Positions 3,413 to 19,745 of a stretch of DNA of 19,834 nt are shown here, piece by piece. Position 1 is the first letter of the stretch, and each line of letters opens with the position of its first letter. The translations under genes were made by a program, and so were the position numbers. The notes below the pieces were generated by a model. The model saw nothing but the letters and a program-made list of their open reading frames with translations, had not been told where the DNA came from and did no database searches. The stretch spans positions 1 through 19,834 of the forward strand of contig PXTR01000118.1 of assembly GCA_003023245.1 (NCBI GenBank). Reading direction: 5' to 3'. The DNA is from Bacteroidetes bacterium QS_8_68_15 (GTDB taxonomy: Bacteria; Bacteroidota; Rhodothermia; Rhodothermales; Salinibacteraceae).

Positions 3413-3515
3413 AGCTGTCGGCTGTTAGCTGTCGGCTGTTAGCTTCTCATCTCGACAAGCCAACGGGCAACAGCCGAAACCCGAAACCCCGAACCCCAAA
3501 CCCGCCACCGCACCG
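3413..3515. repeat. Inverted pair of heptamer arrays between rpmI and rplT
   Basis: Directly after the rpmI stop codon, AGCTGTC and GGCTGTT alternate exactly for four units (3413-3440) plus three more bases. A second array, CCGAAAC twice, then CCCGAAC, CCCAAAC and CCGCCAC (3474-3508), runs up to the rplT start. The two meet as a perfect 9-base inverted repeat: TCGGCTGTT at 3432-3440 and AACAGCCGA at 3469-3477, with a 28-base loop. There is no T-run after it, so it does not look like a Rho-independent terminator. Confidence 0.7.
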
Positions 3516-3957: not shown

Positions 3958-4025
3958 TTCTGGTTTCTTGATTGGTGAGTACACCCCAAAAACCAAACAC
4001 CAAAACCCGAAGACCAGAACCCCAA
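3958..4025. repeat. Heptamer arrays in inverted orientation ahead of pheS
   Basis: The right-hand array is exactly six 7-base units long (3984-4025), starting CCCCAAA, AACCAAA and continuing with CACCAAA, ACCCGAA, GACCAGA and ACCCCAA. It ends one base before the pheS start codon. The left-hand array (3958-3978; TTCTGGT, TTCTTGA, TTGGTGA) is T/G-rich and roughly complementary to it, for instance TCTGG against CCAGA and TTGGTG against CACCAA. The period is clear on the right arm; the left arm is more degenerate. It lies just downstream of the rplT terminator. Confidence 0.6.
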
Positions 4026-5059: not shown

Positions 5060-5103
5060 TCGGGCTTTGGTTCTCCATGAGCTAACGAATAACCAAGTCC
5101 CAA
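5060..5103. repeat. Imperfect inverted repeat in the pheS-pheT gap
   Basis: TCGGGCTTTGGTT (5060-5072), starting five bases after the pheS stop, can pair with AACCAAGTCCCAA (5091-5103) through ten Watson-Crick pairs and one G-T. The right side continues with CCAA- and CCCA-containing steps toward the pheT start. This is a weaker version of the stop-adjacent and start-adjacent complementary arms seen in the neighbouring gaps. The 7-base period is blurred here. Confidence 0.45.
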
Positions 5104-5130
5104 GAGCGAGCGTACCAAATCCCAGGTCTC

Positions 5131-7888: not shown

Positions 7889-8191
7889 ATGCCCGACGAC
7901 GACGCTTCCGGCGACGACGCCCTCGCCGACGGCGACCGCGAGGCCCTGCCCGCGCTGGAGGAGCTGCGCGACGCCGTGGCCCGCGCCACGCGCGAGATCG
8001 ACCGCCTGCGTGAGGAGAACGCCCGCCTCGAAGACGAAAACGACCGCCTGCGCGAGCGCATCGACCAGCTCGAAGCCGACCCTGCCGCCGGACGCGACGG
8101 CACCGCCGTCCTCCTCGATGACGAGCCGGAGGACTTGCGCGAGCGCATCGACCGCTTCATCGACGCCATCGACGCGCACTTGGAAGCGTAA
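7889..8191 (+). CDS. Small acidic coiled-coil protein upstream of zapA
   Basis: This 100-residue protein has an acidic, low-complexity start (MPDDDASGDDALADGDREA). A leucine- and glutamate-rich heptad region follows at about residues 20-65 (EIDRLREENARLEDENDRLR and onward), which should form a parallel coiled coil. The C-terminal segment LRERIDRFIDAIDAHLEA is amphipathic. There is no signal peptide or membrane segment. No enzyme family is recognisable. Proteins of this size and character often sit just before zapA in Bacteroidota, and the resemblance to ZapB-like division coiled coils is suggestive. That link is inference from position and composition only. The stop codon TAA (8189-8191) lies inside the left arm of an inverted heptamer repeat. 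Confidence 0.75.
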   Translation: MPDDDASGDDALADGDREALPALEELRDAVARATREIDRLREENARLEDENDRLRERIDQLEADPAAGRDGTAVLLDDEPEDLRERIDRFIDAIDAHLEA

Positions 8192-8260
8192 CGCGTATTG
8201 CAACCCCGAGCGTACTCGTATCGTGTGCTGTCATTACGCAATACGCATTACGCAACACGC
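8186..8260. repeat. Best-preserved inverted heptamer element, between coiled-coil gene and zapA
   Basis: The left arm GCGTAACGCGTATTGC (8186-8201) is complementary to the right arm GCAATACGCATTACGC (8238-8253) at 15 of 16 positions, with a 36-base loop. The right side is a clean heptamer array (8233-8260): ATTACGC, AATACGC, ATTACGC again, then AACACGC. The left arm also has period 7 (GCGTAAC, GCGTATT). The TAA inside GCGTAAC is the stop codon of the upstream gene. There is no T-run to make it a standard terminator. Confidence 0.75.
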
Positions 8261-8328
8261 CCCCGCTTCACAAAGTCAGGCTGAAGGAAGGCAGAGACGA
8301 CAAATTCGAATAGTCAACGGCCGCACCA

Positions 8329-12903: not shown

Positions 12904-13156
12904 GCGTTTGGCGCAGGGCGCTTGGCGTTTTTTCAGGGTGCGGGCGTTTCGCGATGAGCACGACCGCAGCGATTTTCGGAAGTGGCTAAGGGCGCGGCTC
13001 AAGTGATCGAGGCGTTCGAGTAGCTCATCGAGCGTCTCCGCACTCACGATGCCGCGTTTGTGCAGCAGAACAAGGATGTTGGCATTTTCGAAGATGAAAC
13101 GGCGCCATCGTTCTGTTTTGTCGCACGTAAACAGGAAAACGCCAGGCGCCTCCGCC
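12904..13156. repeat. Inverted heptamer arrays flanking a 204-bp insert, DUF4112-envC gap
   Basis: The left array (12904-12931) is GCGTTTG, GCGCAGG, GCGCTTG, GCGTTTT and starts eleven bases after the DUF4112 stop. The right array (13136-13156) is AAAACGC, CAGGCGC, CTCCGCC and runs into the stop codon of the convergent EnvC-like gene at 13163. Read as its reverse complement, the left array is AAAACGC, CAAGCGC, CCTGCGC, CAAACGC: identical in the first unit and 6 of 7 in the second. The pair therefore acts like terminal inverted repeats around the 204-base interior, which contains a coding-like fragment. Confidence 0.6.
12964..13140 (-). pseudogene. Decayed coding fragment, possibly the C-terminal part of a four-helix-bundle protein
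   Basis: In one minus-strand frame the 59 codons read like real protein: CDKTERWRRFIFENANILVL, then LHKRGIVSAETLDELLERLD and HLSRALSHFRKSL. The hydrophobic spacing is that of amphipathic helices. The last part resembles the C-terminal helix of four-helix-bundle (23S rRNA intervening-sequence type) proteins, but I recall this only loosely. There is no plausible start codon upstream: the frame continues into the 3' end of the EnvC-like gene in the wrong phase. Downstream it runs on through heptamers and into the DUF4112 gene. Base composition is more A/T-rich than the neighbouring genes. It lies entirely between the two inverted heptamer arrays. It could also be a chance open frame. Confidence 0.35.
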
Positions 13157-14380: not shown

Positions 14381-14390
14381 GGAGGGTCCC

Positions 14391-14425
14391 GTGATGCGTA
14401 TTTCGTGATGCGTATTTCGTGATGC
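14391..14425. repeat. Exact alternating heptamer array upstream of the EnvC-like gene
   Basis: Five 7-base units alternate perfectly, GTGATGC and GTATTTC, in the order ABABA on the plus strand. The array ends 10 bases before the EnvC-like start codon (14380, minus strand), so it probably lies in its leader or in the DUF4292-to-EnvC spacer of the operon. Beyond it is an unrelated perfect 8-base inverted repeat, ATGCCCTT (14422-14429) and AAGGGCAT (14448-14455). Confidence 0.75.
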
Positions 14426-15330: not shown

Positions 15331-15474
15331 TATTGCGTAAAGCGTATTGCGTAATGACAACAGGTTGAGCGGATTTTGCTCGGGGTCTACCGGCAACGCT
15401 ATTCAGAACGTGTTGACGCTCGAATGTTCTATCGGCATTTGCAAACGAGCAACCTTACGGAATACGCAACACGC
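15331..15474. repeat. Dispersed element, copy A: inverted heptamer arrays around a conserved core
   Basis: On the plus strand the left array is TATTGCG, TAAAGCG, TATTGCG, TAATGAC (15331-15358). The right array is CTTACGG, AATACGC, AACACGC (15454-15474), in roughly inverted complementary sense. Between them lies a core that, on the minus strand, begins CATTCGAGCGTCAACAC (15426 to 15410) and is recognisably related to the core of copy B at 19542 onward. It fills the gap between DUF4292 and the TPR gene together with the REP-like element at 15538. The whole gap is noticeably less GC-rich than the genes. Confidence 0.65.
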
Positions 15475-15537
15475 ACCGGTGCTGAGGAAAAAACGTAACC
15501 CAAGTTGTGGGGTATGGCGAAAACCAATCAAACCAGC

Positions 15538-15652
15538 GTGTCATCCCGCACTTGATGCGGCGCTGCGAAAGCAAGTGCTCCTGGGGCGGATCTCCCTCGG
15601 TTTGGCTGCCAATAATCCGAATGAGATTCCGGATCGGGGTCCGGAATGACAC
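15538..15652. repeat. REP-like 115-bp palindromic element inside the 3' end of the TPR gene
   Basis: The ends are GTGTCATCCCG (15538-15548) and CGGAATGACAC (15642-15652), inverted with one mismatch in 11. Each end also holds its own small stem: CCGCA/TGCGG (15546-15550/15556-15560), and CCGGA/TCCGG close to the right end (about 15629-15643). The two-arm shape with TGTCATTCCGG-type termini is that of the small REP/palindromic-unit elements spread through many bacterial genomes. It has no coding capacity of its own but is read through by the TPR lipoprotein gene. Confidence 0.7.
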
Positions 15653-17148
15653 ATTTTCTGATAGGTGGGAGCGTCCTGCCGGTCGTACAGGCGGGCGAGC
15701 GTGTCGTGGAAGCGAGCGGCGCGCTCGACTGGCGCAGCGGCGGCCCCGTCGTCGAGCAGGCCTTCGGCCTTCATGACGCGCAGGGCGTCCTCGAACCGGC
15801 GCGCGGCAGCGGCGGGTTGCCCGTCGCGCGCGAGAGCGGTGGCGTGAGCGCGCAGGAGCGGAAGCCGGCCGGGAAAGAGCAGCAGGCCTTCGTCGGCCAT
15901 CGCCGCGGCGCGTGCGGGGCGGCCGGCTTCGAGAAACGCCTGCGCGGCGCGGGCCCACCGTTTCGGCGCGCGCGGGTCCTGCGCCAGCGCGCGTTCGAGC
16001 AGCGCAGCTGCCTCGGCGAAGGCGCCGGCCTCGAAGCGCAGGCGGCCCAGCAGGGCGAGCGACGCGGCGTGCGTGGAGTCCTTGGCCAGCGCTTCTCGTA
16101 GCAGGCGCTCGGTCGCGTCGTCGGCGTCGCCGTCGCGGTAGCGGAGGCGGGCGCGCTCCGCGAGTTGGTCGGCGGAGGCGCCGGCGGCGTTGAAGCGGGC
16201 GGCGGACTGCTCCTCCAGCGCGGCGGCCTGCTCGGGGCGACCGGCGGCGCGATACGCGTCGGCCAGGAGCGCCGTCGTTTCAGGGTCGGTCGGGGCGCGG
16301 GCGAGGGCTTCTTCGAGCACAGCAGCGGCTTCGCTCGGGCGGTCTCGTTTCCGGTAGAACCGCGCCAGCGCGCGGCGATGCGCGTTGCGGTCGGGCGCGC
16401 GCCGGATCAGCGTGTTCAGCGTGCGTTCGGTGCCGGCGGCGTCGCCGGTTCGGCGGTAAAGCGCCAGCATTTCGGTGAGAATGGCGACCGGCGGCCCGGT
16501 GGTGGGAGCGTCGGCGTGCCCGTCGGTGAGGCGTTCGTAGGCGTCGAGCGCCCGCTGCGGCTGCCCGGCCCCGGCCTGGAGACGCGCGAGCGAGCGGAGC
16601 GCCCGGCGGTCGTCGGGCGCGCGCTCCAGCAGCGCCCGGTACGTCGCGACGGCCTGCTTCGTCTGCCCGGCCTGCCGGTAGAGGCGCGCGAGCTGACGGG
16701 TGTAGTGCGCGTCGTCGTTACCATCGGCGGCGGCGGCGGTCCCGAACCGGCGCGCCCGACGAGCGTGGTAGAGCGCGGTCGAGAGGTCGCCCCGCGCGGC
16801 CTGCGCGTCGGCGAGCGCCGAGAGGACGGCGGGGGCCTCCGGGGCGGCTTCGAGCGCGCGCCGGTAGTGCCGGACGGCCGAAGCCGTATCGCCGACTCGC
16901 GCGCGTGTGAGGCCGCGAATGAGGTGGCGGCGCGCGTAGGCGTCGTTGGCTTCGCCGAGCGCCTCTTCGGCTGCCCCCGGACGTTTCGCCGGCGCCGGCT
17001 GAGCGCGGCGCGGCGCGGGCTTCTCCGCTTCGGTGTCGGCGCGGCCGGTAGCGGAGGACGCGCATCCGCTGCCCAGGCTCGCCGCGCCGCCCAGCAGAAG
17101 CAGCAGCGCGAACGACGTGAGCAATGATCGGAATCCGATCGTGACCAT
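15541..17148 (-). CDS. TPR-repeat lipoprotein, C-terminus overwritten by a REP-like element
   Basis: The ATG at 17148 gives 535 residues. MVTIGFRSLLTSFALLLLLG and then GAASLGSGC form a lipoprotein-type signal with the cysteine at about residue 29. A proline- and alanine-rich linker follows, then at least ten TPR-like units from about residue 75 to 490. Examples are AVRHYRRALEAAPEAPAVLS, AVATYRALLERAPDDRRALR, AAVLEEALARAPTDPETTAL and AAALLERALAQDPRAPKRWA. The natural sequence seems to end at DRQDAPTYQKM. The last 36 residues (CHSGPRSGISFG onward) and the stop codon are encoded by the palindromic element at 15538-15652. TPR lipoproteins of this kind scaffold envelope complexes; here the gene leads a likely operon with DUF4292 and the EnvC-like gene. 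Upstream in-frame starts (up to 17331) exist but would bury the signal peptide. Confidence 0.85.
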   Translation of the reverse strand: MVTIGFRSLLTSFALLLLLGGAASLGSGCASSATGRADTEAEKPAPRRAQPAPAKRPGAAEEALGEANDAYARRHLIRGLTRARVGDTASAVRHYRRALEAAPEAPAVLSALADAQAARGDLSTALYHARRARRFGTAAAADGNDDAHYTRQLARLYRQAGQTKQAVATYRALLERAPDDRRALRSLARLQAGAGQPQRALDAYERLTDGHADAPTTGPPVAILTEMLALYRRTGDAAGTERTLNTLIRRAPDRNAHRRALARFYRKRDRPSEAAAVLEEALARAPTDPETTALLADAYRAAGRPEQAAALEEQSAARFNAAGASADQLAERARLRYRDGDADDATERLLREALAKDSTHAASLALLGRLRFEAGAFAEAAALLERALAQDPRAPKRWARAAQAFLEAGRPARAAAMADEGLLLFPGRLPLLRAHATALARDGQPAAAARRFEDALRVMKAEGLLDDGAAAAPVERAARFHDTLARLYDRQDAPTYQKMCHSGPRSGISFGLLAAKPREIRPRSTCFRSAASSAG

Positions 17149-17458: not shown

Positions 17459-19453
17459 ATGGGACAACATGACGTTCAGCAGACGATCGACGAGGCCGCG
17501 CTGCGCGACTTTACACGCCACCTCATCCAGGACGTGCGCGCCCTGGAGTACATGCTCGAGCGCGGTCGCTTCGAGACCGACGTGCGCCGCATCGGGGCCG
17601 AGCAGGAGCTTTTCCTGGTGGACGACCGCTGGCAGCCGGCCCCCATCGTGAACGACGTGCTCGACGAGGCCGAGGACGACCGCCTCGTCACCGAGCTGAC
17701 GCGCTTCAACCTCGAGTTCAACATGGAGCCGGTCGGCTTCGGGGACACCTGCCTGCGCGGAATCGAGACGGAGCTCTCCGAAACGCTCGCCTCCACGCGC
17801 GAGCTCGTGCGCTCCGTCGGCGGCGACATCGTGCTGACGGGCATTCTGCCGACGGTCCACCTCTCGGACCTGGCACTCGACAACATGACGCCCAGCCCGC
17901 GCTACTACGCGCTCAATGATGCGCTCATGAAGCTGCGCGGCGGCCCGGCGCAGTTTCAGATCCGCGGGGTCGACGAGCTGTTCGTCAAGCACGACTCGAT
18001 CATGCTGGAGGGCGTCAACACCAGCTTTCAGACGCACTTCCAGGTCGCGCCCGATGAGTTCGCCCGGTTTTACAACATCGCGCAGGTCGTCGCCGCGCCG
18101 TGCCTGGCGGCCGCGACCAACTCGCCGCTGCTGTTCGGCAAGCGCCTCTGGCGAGAGACGCGCATCGCGCTCTTTCAGCAGGCGGTCGACACGCGCTCCT
18201 CGAACCTCTACCTGCGGGAGATGTCGCCGCGCGTGCACTTCGGCACCGGCTGGGTCGAGGAGTCGGTCATGGAGATTTTCAAGGAAGACATTTCACGCTT
18301 CCACGTCATCCTCACCACCGACCTGAACGAGAACCCGTTCGAGGTGCTCCAGAACGGGGGCGTGCCCGAGCTTCAGGCGCTTTCGCTGCACAACGGCACG
18401 GTCTACCGATGGAACCGCCCCTGCTACGGGCTCACCGACGGCGAGCCGCACCTGCGCATCGAAAACCGCATTCTGCCGAGCGGCCCCACGCCCGCCGACG
18501 AGGTGGCCAACGCGGCGTTCTGGTTCGGCCTCGTCAGCGGCCTGGCCGAGCGCTACGACGACATCCGCGACGTCATCTCGTTCCCGAAGGCGAAGAACAA
18601 CTTCGTCGCCGCCGCGCGCGAGGGGCTGGCCTCGCAGTTCGCCTGGCTGGAGGGCCAGAAGCAGATACCCGCCCACCGGCTCATCCTCGAAGACCTCCTG
18701 CCGACGGCCGAGAACGGGCTGCGCACCTCCGGCGTGGACGAGGGCGACATCGACCGCTATCTCGGCATCATCGAGAAGCGCGTCGAGAGCGGGCAGACCG
18801 GCTCGCAGTGGCAGCTCGATTCGCTCGACGCGATGGAGGAGCAGGCCGGGGTTGGCACCGGCGGAGCGCGCGCTGAACGGCTCACCGCACTGGCGGCTGC
18901 GATGGTGACGCGGCAGGAGGAGGGCGCGCCCGTGCACGAGTGGCCTCTCGCGAAGCGGGGCGAAGGCACCGTCCCGGAGCGGATGCAGCGCTCGCGCGTG
19001 GAGCAGCACATGACGACGGATCTCTTTACCGTCCACGACAACGAGCCCGTCGAGTTCGTCGCCTGCCTGATGGATTGGCAGCGCATCCGCCAGGTGCTCG
19101 TGGAGGACGAGCAGCACCGCCTCGTAGGATTGGTAAGCCACCGCAACCTGCTGCGCTACCTCGCCGATCGCAACGCCGAGCGCGACGAAGTCGTCCCCGT
19201 CCCCGTCTGCGACGTCATGGTCGAAGACCCGGTCAGCGTCTCGCCGGAGACCTCGACCCTCGACGCCATCGAGCTGATGCGCGAGCGCCAGATCGGCGCG
19301 CTCCCGGTCGTGCGCGAAGACCAGCTCGTCGGCATCGTGACCGAGCGCGACTTCGTCGAGATCGCCGGCCAGCTGCTCGACGACTCCTTCGGCGGCCCGG
19401 CCGCCCCGCAAGAGCCTCCGCCTTCCTCGCAGGCGCCGGACGCGGCAGAGTGA
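17459..19453 (+). CDS. Glutamate-cysteine-ligase-like (GCS2 family) carboxylate-amine ligase with C-terminal CBS pair
   Basis: The 664-residue product starts MGQHDVQQTIDEAALRDFTR. Residues about 40-420 match the GCS2 (carboxylate-amine ligase) fold: RRIGAEQELFLVDD (the ATP/metal strand GxExE-like motif), LTRFNLEFNMEPVGFG, NTSFQTHFQVAPDEFARFYN, LREMSPRVHFGTGWVEES, and HLRIENRILPSGPTPADEVA. Such enzymes join an amino group to a side-chain or alpha carboxylate using ATP, gamma-glutamylcysteine synthesis being the best-known reaction. The substrate here is unknown. Two CBS domains follow, at about 518-570 (MTTDLFTVHDNEPVEF and onward) and 583-640 (VCDVMVEDPVSVSPETSTLD, then GALPVVREDQLVGIVTERDF). 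CBS pairs bind adenine nucleotides, so the enzyme is probably tuned by energy charge. The acidic proline-rich tail looks disordered. The stop codon lies at the edge of a heptamer array. Confidence 0.85.
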   Translation: MGQHDVQQTIDEAALRDFTRHLIQDVRALEYMLERGRFETDVRRIGAEQELFLVDDRWQPAPIVNDVLDEAEDDRLVTELTRFNLEFNMEPVGFGDTCLRGIETELSETLASTRELVRSVGGDIVLTGILPTVHLSDLALDNMTPSPRYYALNDALMKLRGGPAQFQIRGVDELFVKHDSIMLEGVNTSFQTHFQVAPDEFARFYNIAQVVAAPCLAAATNSPLLFGKRLWRETRIALFQQAVDTRSSNLYLREMSPRVHFGTGWVEESVMEIFKEDISRFHVILTTDLNENPFEVLQNGGVPELQALSLHNGTVYRWNRPCYGLTDGEPHLRIENRILPSGPTPADEVANAAFWFGLVSGLAERYDDIRDVISFPKAKNNFVAAAREGLASQFAWLEGQKQIPAHRLILEDLLPTAENGLRTSGVDEGDIDRYLGIIEKRVESGQTGSQWQLDSLDAMEEQAGVGTGGARAERLTALAAAMVTRQEEGAPVHEWPLAKRGEGTVPERMQRSRVEQHMTTDLFTVHDNEPVEFVACLMDWQRIRQVLVEDEQHRLVGLVSHRNLLRYLADRNAERDEVVPVPVCDVMVEDPVSVSPETSTLDAIELMRERQIGALPVVREDQLVGIVTERDFVEIAGQLLDDSFGGPAAPQEPPPSSQAPDAAE

Positions 19454-19646
19454 TGCGTGACCTGTGATGCGTGACCCGTGCGTGATGCGTGAGGCTGCGA
19501 GGCTATGACCTTCGTCCCCGGATCTGCAGACGTGGAATGAGCATTCGAGCGCCAACACTTTCGGCAGGATGTCGCCGGTAGGTCGGAGCGCAAGCCGTTC
19601 GGGAGGGCGCCATTACGCAACACGAAATACGCAATACGCAGACGGA
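19450..19646. repeat. Dispersed element, copy B: inverted heptamer arrays around a conserved core
   Basis: The left array (19450-19495) has GTGATGC alternating with GTGACCT, GTGACCC and GTGAGGC, with one 4-base interruption at 19478-19481. It begins inside the final codons of the ligase gene: the TGA of its first GTGATGC is the stop. The right array (19612-19646) is ATTACGC, AACACGA, AATACGC, AATACGC, AGACGGA, in the opposite sense. The core from 19542 (CATTCGAGCGCCAACAC) to about 19611 is related to the minus-strand core of copy A. It occupies most of the 292-base gap before the ferredoxin gene. Confidence 0.65.
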
Positions 19647-19745
19647 GCCCCTGTGAAAGCCGCCCGCCGTTCGGCACAAGCGCTACGCCGGAGCGGTTGT
19701 CTCAAAGCTATCCTCCTTCCGTTTGCGAAAGCATCCCGAGCGAAC

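Follow-up and report, generated by a model that had tools for sequence, protein, structure and literature searches.

Many intergenic gaps in the window (the whole stretch of 19,834 nucleotides analysed here) and in its relatives carry tandem heptamer arrays, and the two arms of a gap tend to be complementary to each other. This gap-specific matching is limited to the family level and involves a limited set of unit families, one of which has a lineage-specific copy number and is present, absent or inverted at three orthologous gaps. The match between arms seems to stem from both belonging to one dispersed repeat family, not from base-by-base upkeep of a hairpin. The pattern is real, and the reading we favour is that of mobile-element-like palindromes, grouped in families and ending in heptamer arrays, the movement of which we infer. 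The nearest named relative found was the MAG Bacteroidetes bacterium SW_9_63_38 (PheT 54%); three closer relatives of the same class, G192 (PheT 82%), G190 (75%) and G191 (75% over part of the protein), were used for comparison.

The gap that drew attention lies between a ZapB-like gene and zapA (8183-8328). Its arms pair at 15 of 16 positions (Table 1), and its arm score of 13.5 was equalled by none of 300 dinucleotide shuffles (mean 6.7, s.d. 1.0). The earlier note had described two heptamer arrays at 8186-8260 forming these arms. The pairing holds, and the right side (8232-8260) is a genuine array with period 7/14, but the left arm contains only about two units, was not listed by Tandem Repeats Finder and takes its first six bases from the upstream gene, as that gene's last codon and stop codon. 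With that gene end excluded (8192-8328), the arms came down to 9 bases and were equalled by 9 of 300 shuffles. The RNA fold of 8180-8270 had a z of -2.76, with equally good folding in 2 of 200 shuffles. By eye, the start of the linker, AACCCCGAGCGTACT, appears similar to the start of an insert resembling element B (described below) in the lipoprotein-TPR gap of G192. The gap may be a small member of one of the families, and its linker could be the remnant of a second dispersed element.

The genes of the window comprise infC, rpmI, rplT, pheS, zapA, a CcmF-like gene and genes for a DUF4112 protein, an M23 peptidase and a CBS/GCS2 protein. The ZapB-like gene scored slightly below its cut-off, and pheT, the endonuclease V-like, lipoprotein-like and TPR-like genes and the last, ferredoxin-like gene carry putative names that we assigned by reading the sequence. 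Genes were called by a home-made caller, and some small genes and starts are wrong. For each gap of the window the best arms were compared with those of 300 shuffles, and 6 of the 14 gaps examined have arms reached by at most 15 shuffles. The pairing had been proposed for four companion gaps as well: it is clear at rpmI-rplT (0 of 300 shuffles as good) and at the convergent DUF4112-M23 gap (1 of 300), and weak at pheS-pheT (7 of 300), where the best arms are not exactly the segment originally pointed out. At 3958-4025, however, the arms (3957-3966/4003-4012) are at chance level in the window (139 of 300), while the orthologous gap in G192 has strong arms (score 14.5). Unit sequences do differ from gap to gap, as had been claimed.

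Table 1. Arms, arrays and element copies in the window.
Feature	Position	Strand	Context
Left arm GCGTAACGCGTATTGC	8186..8201	+	About two GCGTNNN units; upstream gene ZapB-like
Linker	8202..8237	+	Starts with AACCCCGAGCGTACT
Right arm GCAATACGCATTACGC	8238..8253	+	Within heptamer array 8232-8260 (TACGCAA units); zapA downstream
Left arm, CGGCTGTTAGCTGT-type units	3418..3437	+	rpmI-rplT gap
Right arm	3458..3477	+	rpmI-rplT gap
Left arm	5062..5071	+	pheS-pheT gap; weak in window, strong in G192, other units in G190 and G191
Right arm	5114..5123	+	pheS-pheT gap
Left arm GGCGCTTGGCGTTTT	12917..12931	+	Convergent gap DUF4112-M23 peptidase
Right arm	13136..13150	+	Convergent gap DUF4112-M23 peptidase
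Heptamer array, CATCACGAAATACG on minus strand	14390..14425	-	Immediately upstream of minus-strand M23 peptidase gene
Element A copy 1, left arm array	15334..15354	+	Arms of the gap reached by 6 of 300 shuffles
Element A copy 1, core and right arm	15389..15473	+	Inverted in orthologous gap of G192; not found in G190, G191
Element A copy 2, core and right arm	19479..19579	-	Same orientation in G192; not found in G190, G191
Heptamer array GTGATGC	19450..19492	+	Overlaps stop codon of upstream gene
Heptamer array TACGCAA	19614..19640	+	Opposite end of element A copy 2

Two further features of the window lie apart from these arms. A palindrome-like stretch (CATTCCGGACCCCGATCCGGAATC) outside element A occupies the minus strand at 15520-15657, in the gap after the TPR-like gene, and a motif, CTGTGAAAG...CGGCACA, upstream of the last gene (19641-19680) is kept in the window, G192, G190 and G191. 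Rfam returned no match anywhere in the window, this motif included.

The genome-scale tests covered the window and parts of G192 (722 kb), G190 (161 kb) and G191 (193 kb), which together hold 769 gaps and 187 testable heptamer arrays. Gaps containing N were left out of the array counts and arm searches; the lag tests still included runs of N, two of which are among the lag-counted arrays, both as AC-rich arrays on the right. In co-directional gaps self-matching peaks at lag 7 (z 18.6), with z 16.6 at lag 14 and 12.1 at lag 21; since lags 2, 3, 8 and 15 are likewise raised (z 12 to 15), the lag test by itself is not clean. The signal sharpens when arrays scoring at least 10 are counted: lag 7 has 62 and lag 14 has 72, each of lags 4, 5, 6, 9, 10, 11 and 12 has between 3 and 7, and lags 8, 15 and 16 have 22, 17 and 28. 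Octamer arrays (lags 8 and 16, for example GCACCCCC or CCCGCACTCCCACGCT) occur alongside the heptamer arrays on contigs L156, L152, L137 and L161 of G192.

Per 10 kb of gap, lag-7 arrays number 8.3 in G192, 3.2 in G190, 3.7 in G191 and 4.5 in 17 loci of more distant relatives, compared with 0.36 in 16 Bacillota and 0.41 in 44 proteobacterial loci; 7 Chloroflexota loci had none (12 of the 79 loci from other bacteria were left out of this control). The pattern is patchy: one genome of the class (G197, 419 kb) is at background level (z 0.5, n=8), another (G151) gives z 2.1 (n=11), and arm matching in the loci of more distant relatives has z 2.5 (n=25). Exact three-unit patterns are infrequent across the class: ATCACG was found in 15 of 244 genomes, with 33 overlapping matches in G192, and its reversed control in 3 of 244. 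The corresponding AAGACC pattern occurred in 7 of 244 genomes, below its reversed control (12 of 244), and is therefore uninformative on spread. Unit families recur: the ten commonest account for 76% of 180 arrays, compared with 48% for letter-shuffled units (8 shuffles), after 15 of 195 arrays with a consensus agreement below 0.75 had been set aside.

The arrays have a strong, though not absolute, polarity. Gap edges are G/T-rich on the left and A/C-rich on the right in all gene orientations, and among the 195 arrays 69 of 96 on the left are GT-rich and 84 of 99 on the right are AC-rich. Being the same in all three gene orientations, the polarity is tied to the gap, not to transcription. Arrays also lie close to genes: 120 of 195 are within 10 nt of a gene edge, where random placement would give 47.6. 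Left arrays adjoin TGA stop codons in 39 of 54 cases, compared with 349 of 598 stops elsewhere. We considered a role of the arrays in supplying stop codons and set it aside: this excess is mild, and only 4 of the 54 stops are in register.

The earlier note had expected arms of one gap to be more complementary than arms taken from different gaps. Indeed, for the 187 arrays (8 of 195 were left out for having less than 20 nt of partner sequence) the best inverted match elsewhere in the same gap averages 7.79, compared with 6.22 (s.d. 0.14) after re-pairing with other gaps of like length (z 11.0, 0 of 2,000 re-pairings); direct-orientation matches average 5.56. The advantage was found in each genome (G192, z 9.3, n=144; G190, z 3.3, n=15; G191, z 4.3, n=22) and in each gene orientation (co-directional, z 9.2; convergent, z 4.2; divergent, z 4.1). 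This array-anchored test took the place of a half-gap test that gave weak signals (z 2.0, 3.6 and 0.7 for co-directional, convergent and divergent gaps).

When arrays were re-paired within one unit family, however, the advantage disappeared (8.08 versus 7.90, z 1.0, n=109). Two other clustering cut-offs gave 8.23 versus 8.16 (z 0.3, n=97) and 7.98 versus 7.83 (z 1.0, n=133), the ATCACG/CAATACG family alone gave z 0.8 (n=45), and in 35 copies of element A (3 of 38 left out) arms of the same copy matched at 9.41 versus 9.86 for re-paired arms (z -1.0). Planting full-length same-gap copies in a quarter of the cases raised z to about 9; coevolution weaker than full-length copying could escape the test. 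Where arrays were detected in both halves of a gap, 8 of 16 gaps had the same family in both, versus 1.8 expected. Arms thus match through their shared family and not through compensatory change gap by gap. This result does not support the proposal that covarying arms reveal maintained folding, and the compensatory change expected of a structured RNA between the paired arms of one locus gave no signal.

A conserved core could be recognised in the families of three elements only, which we call A, B and C. The ATCACG/TACGCAA family has a core with the consensus ACCGGCAACGCCATTCAGAAAGCGTTGACGCTCGAATG..., several copies of which match their own opposite strand, so that element A is an imperfect palindrome. 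An alignment of 13 hand-picked copies spans roughly 140 bp with a mean column identity of 60%. With a model trained mainly on G192 copies, which may miss diverged ones, we found 38 copies of element A: 34 in G192 (722 kb), 2 in the window, 1 in G190 (161 kb) and 1 in G191 (193 kb). The first window copy occupies the lipoprotein-TPR gap; the second follows the CBS/GCS2 gene, in a gap whose arms are no better than chance (251 of 300 shuffles as good); by eye, the second copy in G192 has an AGC-type hairpin inside. Element B has 8 matches, all in G192, some of them within or beside heptamer arrays of different families, and element C has 6. Element B, about 60 bp long, is embedded in the heptamer arrays of two families at L138:14007-14063 and L138:17764-17820.

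Other palindromes were noticed in the same genomes. A compact one resembling GGGCACGATATATCGTGCC forms a BLAST cluster of 7 gaps (L134, L140, L141, L158, L168 and L198 in G192; L188 in G191), and a profile search for it as an element D returned no matches. A convergent gap of 346 nt in G190 (L179) holds two copies of GTTTCACGTGAAAC, which we take to be a ParB-site-like palindrome.

Orthologous gaps show how the families turn over. At several of them both arms have switched together as whole families, and other gaps share their family. At pheS-pheT the units are GGTCTTG/CCAAGAC in the window and G192 but GGTGAGT/ACTCACC in G190 and G191; at DUF4112-M23 the window, G192 and G191 share GGCGCTT-type arms, and those of G190 are of the GGACGGC type. 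In short gaps such as pheS-pheT, the new hairpin stands in place of the old one and not beside it. Across 85 orthologous pairs, drawn from four genomes and therefore not independent (23 of 108 were left out by length or N), arms score 7.39 within a species versus 6.78 across species (p = 0.015), and 9.70 versus 7.53 in the 15 pairs with arms in both partners, a subset picked on arm scores. The advantage of same-gap arms therefore extends to orthologous gaps with changed units, which supports the earlier note on this point. Element A occurs in 7 of the 108 pairs (3 distinct gaps), in one partner only in 6 and in both but inverted in 1. Neither a target-site duplication nor a clean empty site could be demonstrated, because nothing outside the genes can be aligned in partners that lack the element.

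We give about an even chance to an explanation by short palindromes dispersed among intergenic sites, non-autonomous and resembling mobile elements, which have the paired arms as their ends and of which the lineage holds many families. Each family would have its own heptamer word, and arrays of that word would cap a copy on either side in inverted orientation. Two arms would match when one family fills their gap, and orthologous gaps would swap families wholesale. Some activity presumably moves the families, by transposition, conversion or recombination between arrays, and selection against damage to start and stop regions may set the array polarity. Bacterial MITEs and REP/BIME palindromes are likewise short, dispersed, intergenic and non-coding, with variable presence at orthologous sites. 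As in MITEs, homologous copies are dispersed (38 of element A, 8 of B, 6 of C) and the ends are inverted repeats, here heptamer arrays that match at family level. Among the two transposase families searched, neither provided an autonomous partner: the Y1 transposase (PF01797) was found in none of the three draft genomes of relatives and in 5 of 14 control genomes, and DDE_Tnp_1 (PF01609) gave one partial match in one of the three. The absence of the Y1 transposase from these drafts led us to reject a REP/RAYT system. Several observations count against mobile palindromes: neither a target-site duplication, a clean empty site nor, in the two families searched, an autonomous partner was found, recognised cores are confined to the families of elements A, B and C, arrays abut gene edges beyond random placement, which plain insertion does not require, and there are the hairpin replacement at pheS-pheT, the chance-level arms of one element A copy and the patchiness within the class.

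Heptamers might instead arise and turn over in place as slippage microsatellites, with hairpin-templated strand switching copying one arm onto the other. The 7/14/21 periodicity and the wobble-neutral pairing across all gene orientations agree with this, as does the survey of Mrazek et al., as told in the available text of MacGregor (PMC4679880), in which heptamers are the most abundant long repeat class in most of the genomes covered and slippage is invoked. Same-gap copying, however, predicts matching above the family level, which was not seen although strong copying is detectable, and unit families recur at unlinked gaps more than shuffled units do; we regard slippage as a rather improbable source of the pattern. 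It is unlikely, too, that the arms are paired multi-site targets of nucleoid or regulatory DNA-binding proteins, one protein per family. Such targets would suit the polarity and the nearness to gene edges, and in Geobacter metallireducens putative global regulator sites are, in the available text of the paper (PMC2700814), mostly paired, one of them consisting of five tandem heptamers. Yet the family in housekeeping gaps (pheS-pheT, rplT-pheS, DUF4112-M23) differs among close relatives, an ill fit with a conserved regulator.

Arms that fold in the transcript, for example coupling translation of neighbouring genes, would be in line with the RNA fold at 8180-8270 and with co-directional gaps holding 114 of the 168 hairpins that score at least 9; hairpins without array arms even have slightly more G-U (50) than A-C (34) mismatches. 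The array hairpins of co-directional gaps, however, have 13 G-U versus 28 A-C mismatches (47 versus 44 for all co-directional hairpins), and convergent and divergent gaps show comparable matching (z 4.2 and 4.1). The sense strand is the more stable in just 33 of 116 co-directional array gaps, a result that, as gaps without arrays lean likewise (72 of 200), shows only a lack of sense-strand preference. Neither Rfam in the window nor a compensatory signal within families lends support. Intrinsic terminators would also place stems between genes, but among 56 array hairpins just one has a T-rich tract (at least 5 of 8) after its right arm, versus 11 of 169 others. Given that G-U wobbles are not favoured and T tracts are nearly absent, we consider RNA hairpins very improbable and terminators hardly credible. 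Of the cruciform, RNA hairpin and terminal-inverted-repeat element offered by the earlier note, the last fits best, and the same wobble counts and missing T tracts tell against RNA folding. A G-quadruplex reading was also rejected, as the commonest family, GTGATGC/GCATCAC, has no G tract.

The mobile palindromes could, more speculatively, represent a class of bacterial selfish elements with heptamer-array ends. One genome would harbour dozens of families, each with a word read by its own partner. They would settle at gene borders with a preferred polarity, and one family would replace another as a block, even where the neighbours are ribosomal-protein and tRNA-synthetase genes; the heptamers of Xanthomonas, Nostoc, Beggiatoaceae and Geobacter would be relatives or remnants of this class. 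We hold this wider proposal only tentatively and think it rather unlikely as a whole. Heptamer repeats are seen in several bacterial phyla, and there is no consensus on what causes them. With matching at family level and no detectable local coevolution, a loose notion of structure becomes a claim on the spread of repeat families that can be tested, and this lineage offers families that turn over at known orthologous gaps.

The earlier note had thought the system undescribed, which holds in part. Paired heptamer arrays of several families were not found in the literature searched, which covered the class only as Salinibacter and mostly excluded subscription journals, but inverted heptamer-array pairs have been published for Xanthomonas. 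In the available text of Rehm et al. 2015 (PMC4692102), GGGNATC and GGGGA(C/T)T arrays are known from Xanthomonas and Nostoc, with 70 convergent inverted pairs in Xcc and 75 in Xac, and convergent inverted pairs with the polarity reported there are present in this lineage. Those arrays too are heptameric and mostly intergenic, vary in repeat length and sequence among relatives, and have the G-rich strand after stop codons or, in antisense orientation, before starts. In the same text, however, one unit type with G-quadruplex potential is studied per genome, whereas many families coexist here and the commonest (ATCACG) lacks the G tract; the pair type is usually preserved among relatives there, and both arms switch family at some orthologous gaps here. 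The TAACTGA direct repeats of Beggiatoaceae, Cyanobacteria and some Bacteroidetes (MacGregor 2015, PMC4679880) are likewise intergenic heptamers near start codons, with mixed heptamers in Microcystis and larger assemblages in Elizabethkingia; unlike here, the available text analyses one unit, gives a single inverted case in the main genome and proposes a translational role. The heptanucleotide elements of Geobacter metallireducens resemble ours as tandem heptamers that are dispersed, multicopy and mostly paired by site class, and differ in being described, in the available text, as putative regulator sites (PMC2700814). Compared with MITEs and REP/BIME palindromes, the elements differ in having heptamer arrays as ends and in the Y1 (RAYT) transposase not being found in the three relatives. 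As far as our searches go, the number of coexisting families, the demonstration of family-level matching and the exchange of both arms at orthologous gaps are new, and the pattern extends a little-explained kind of bacterial repeat seen in other groups.
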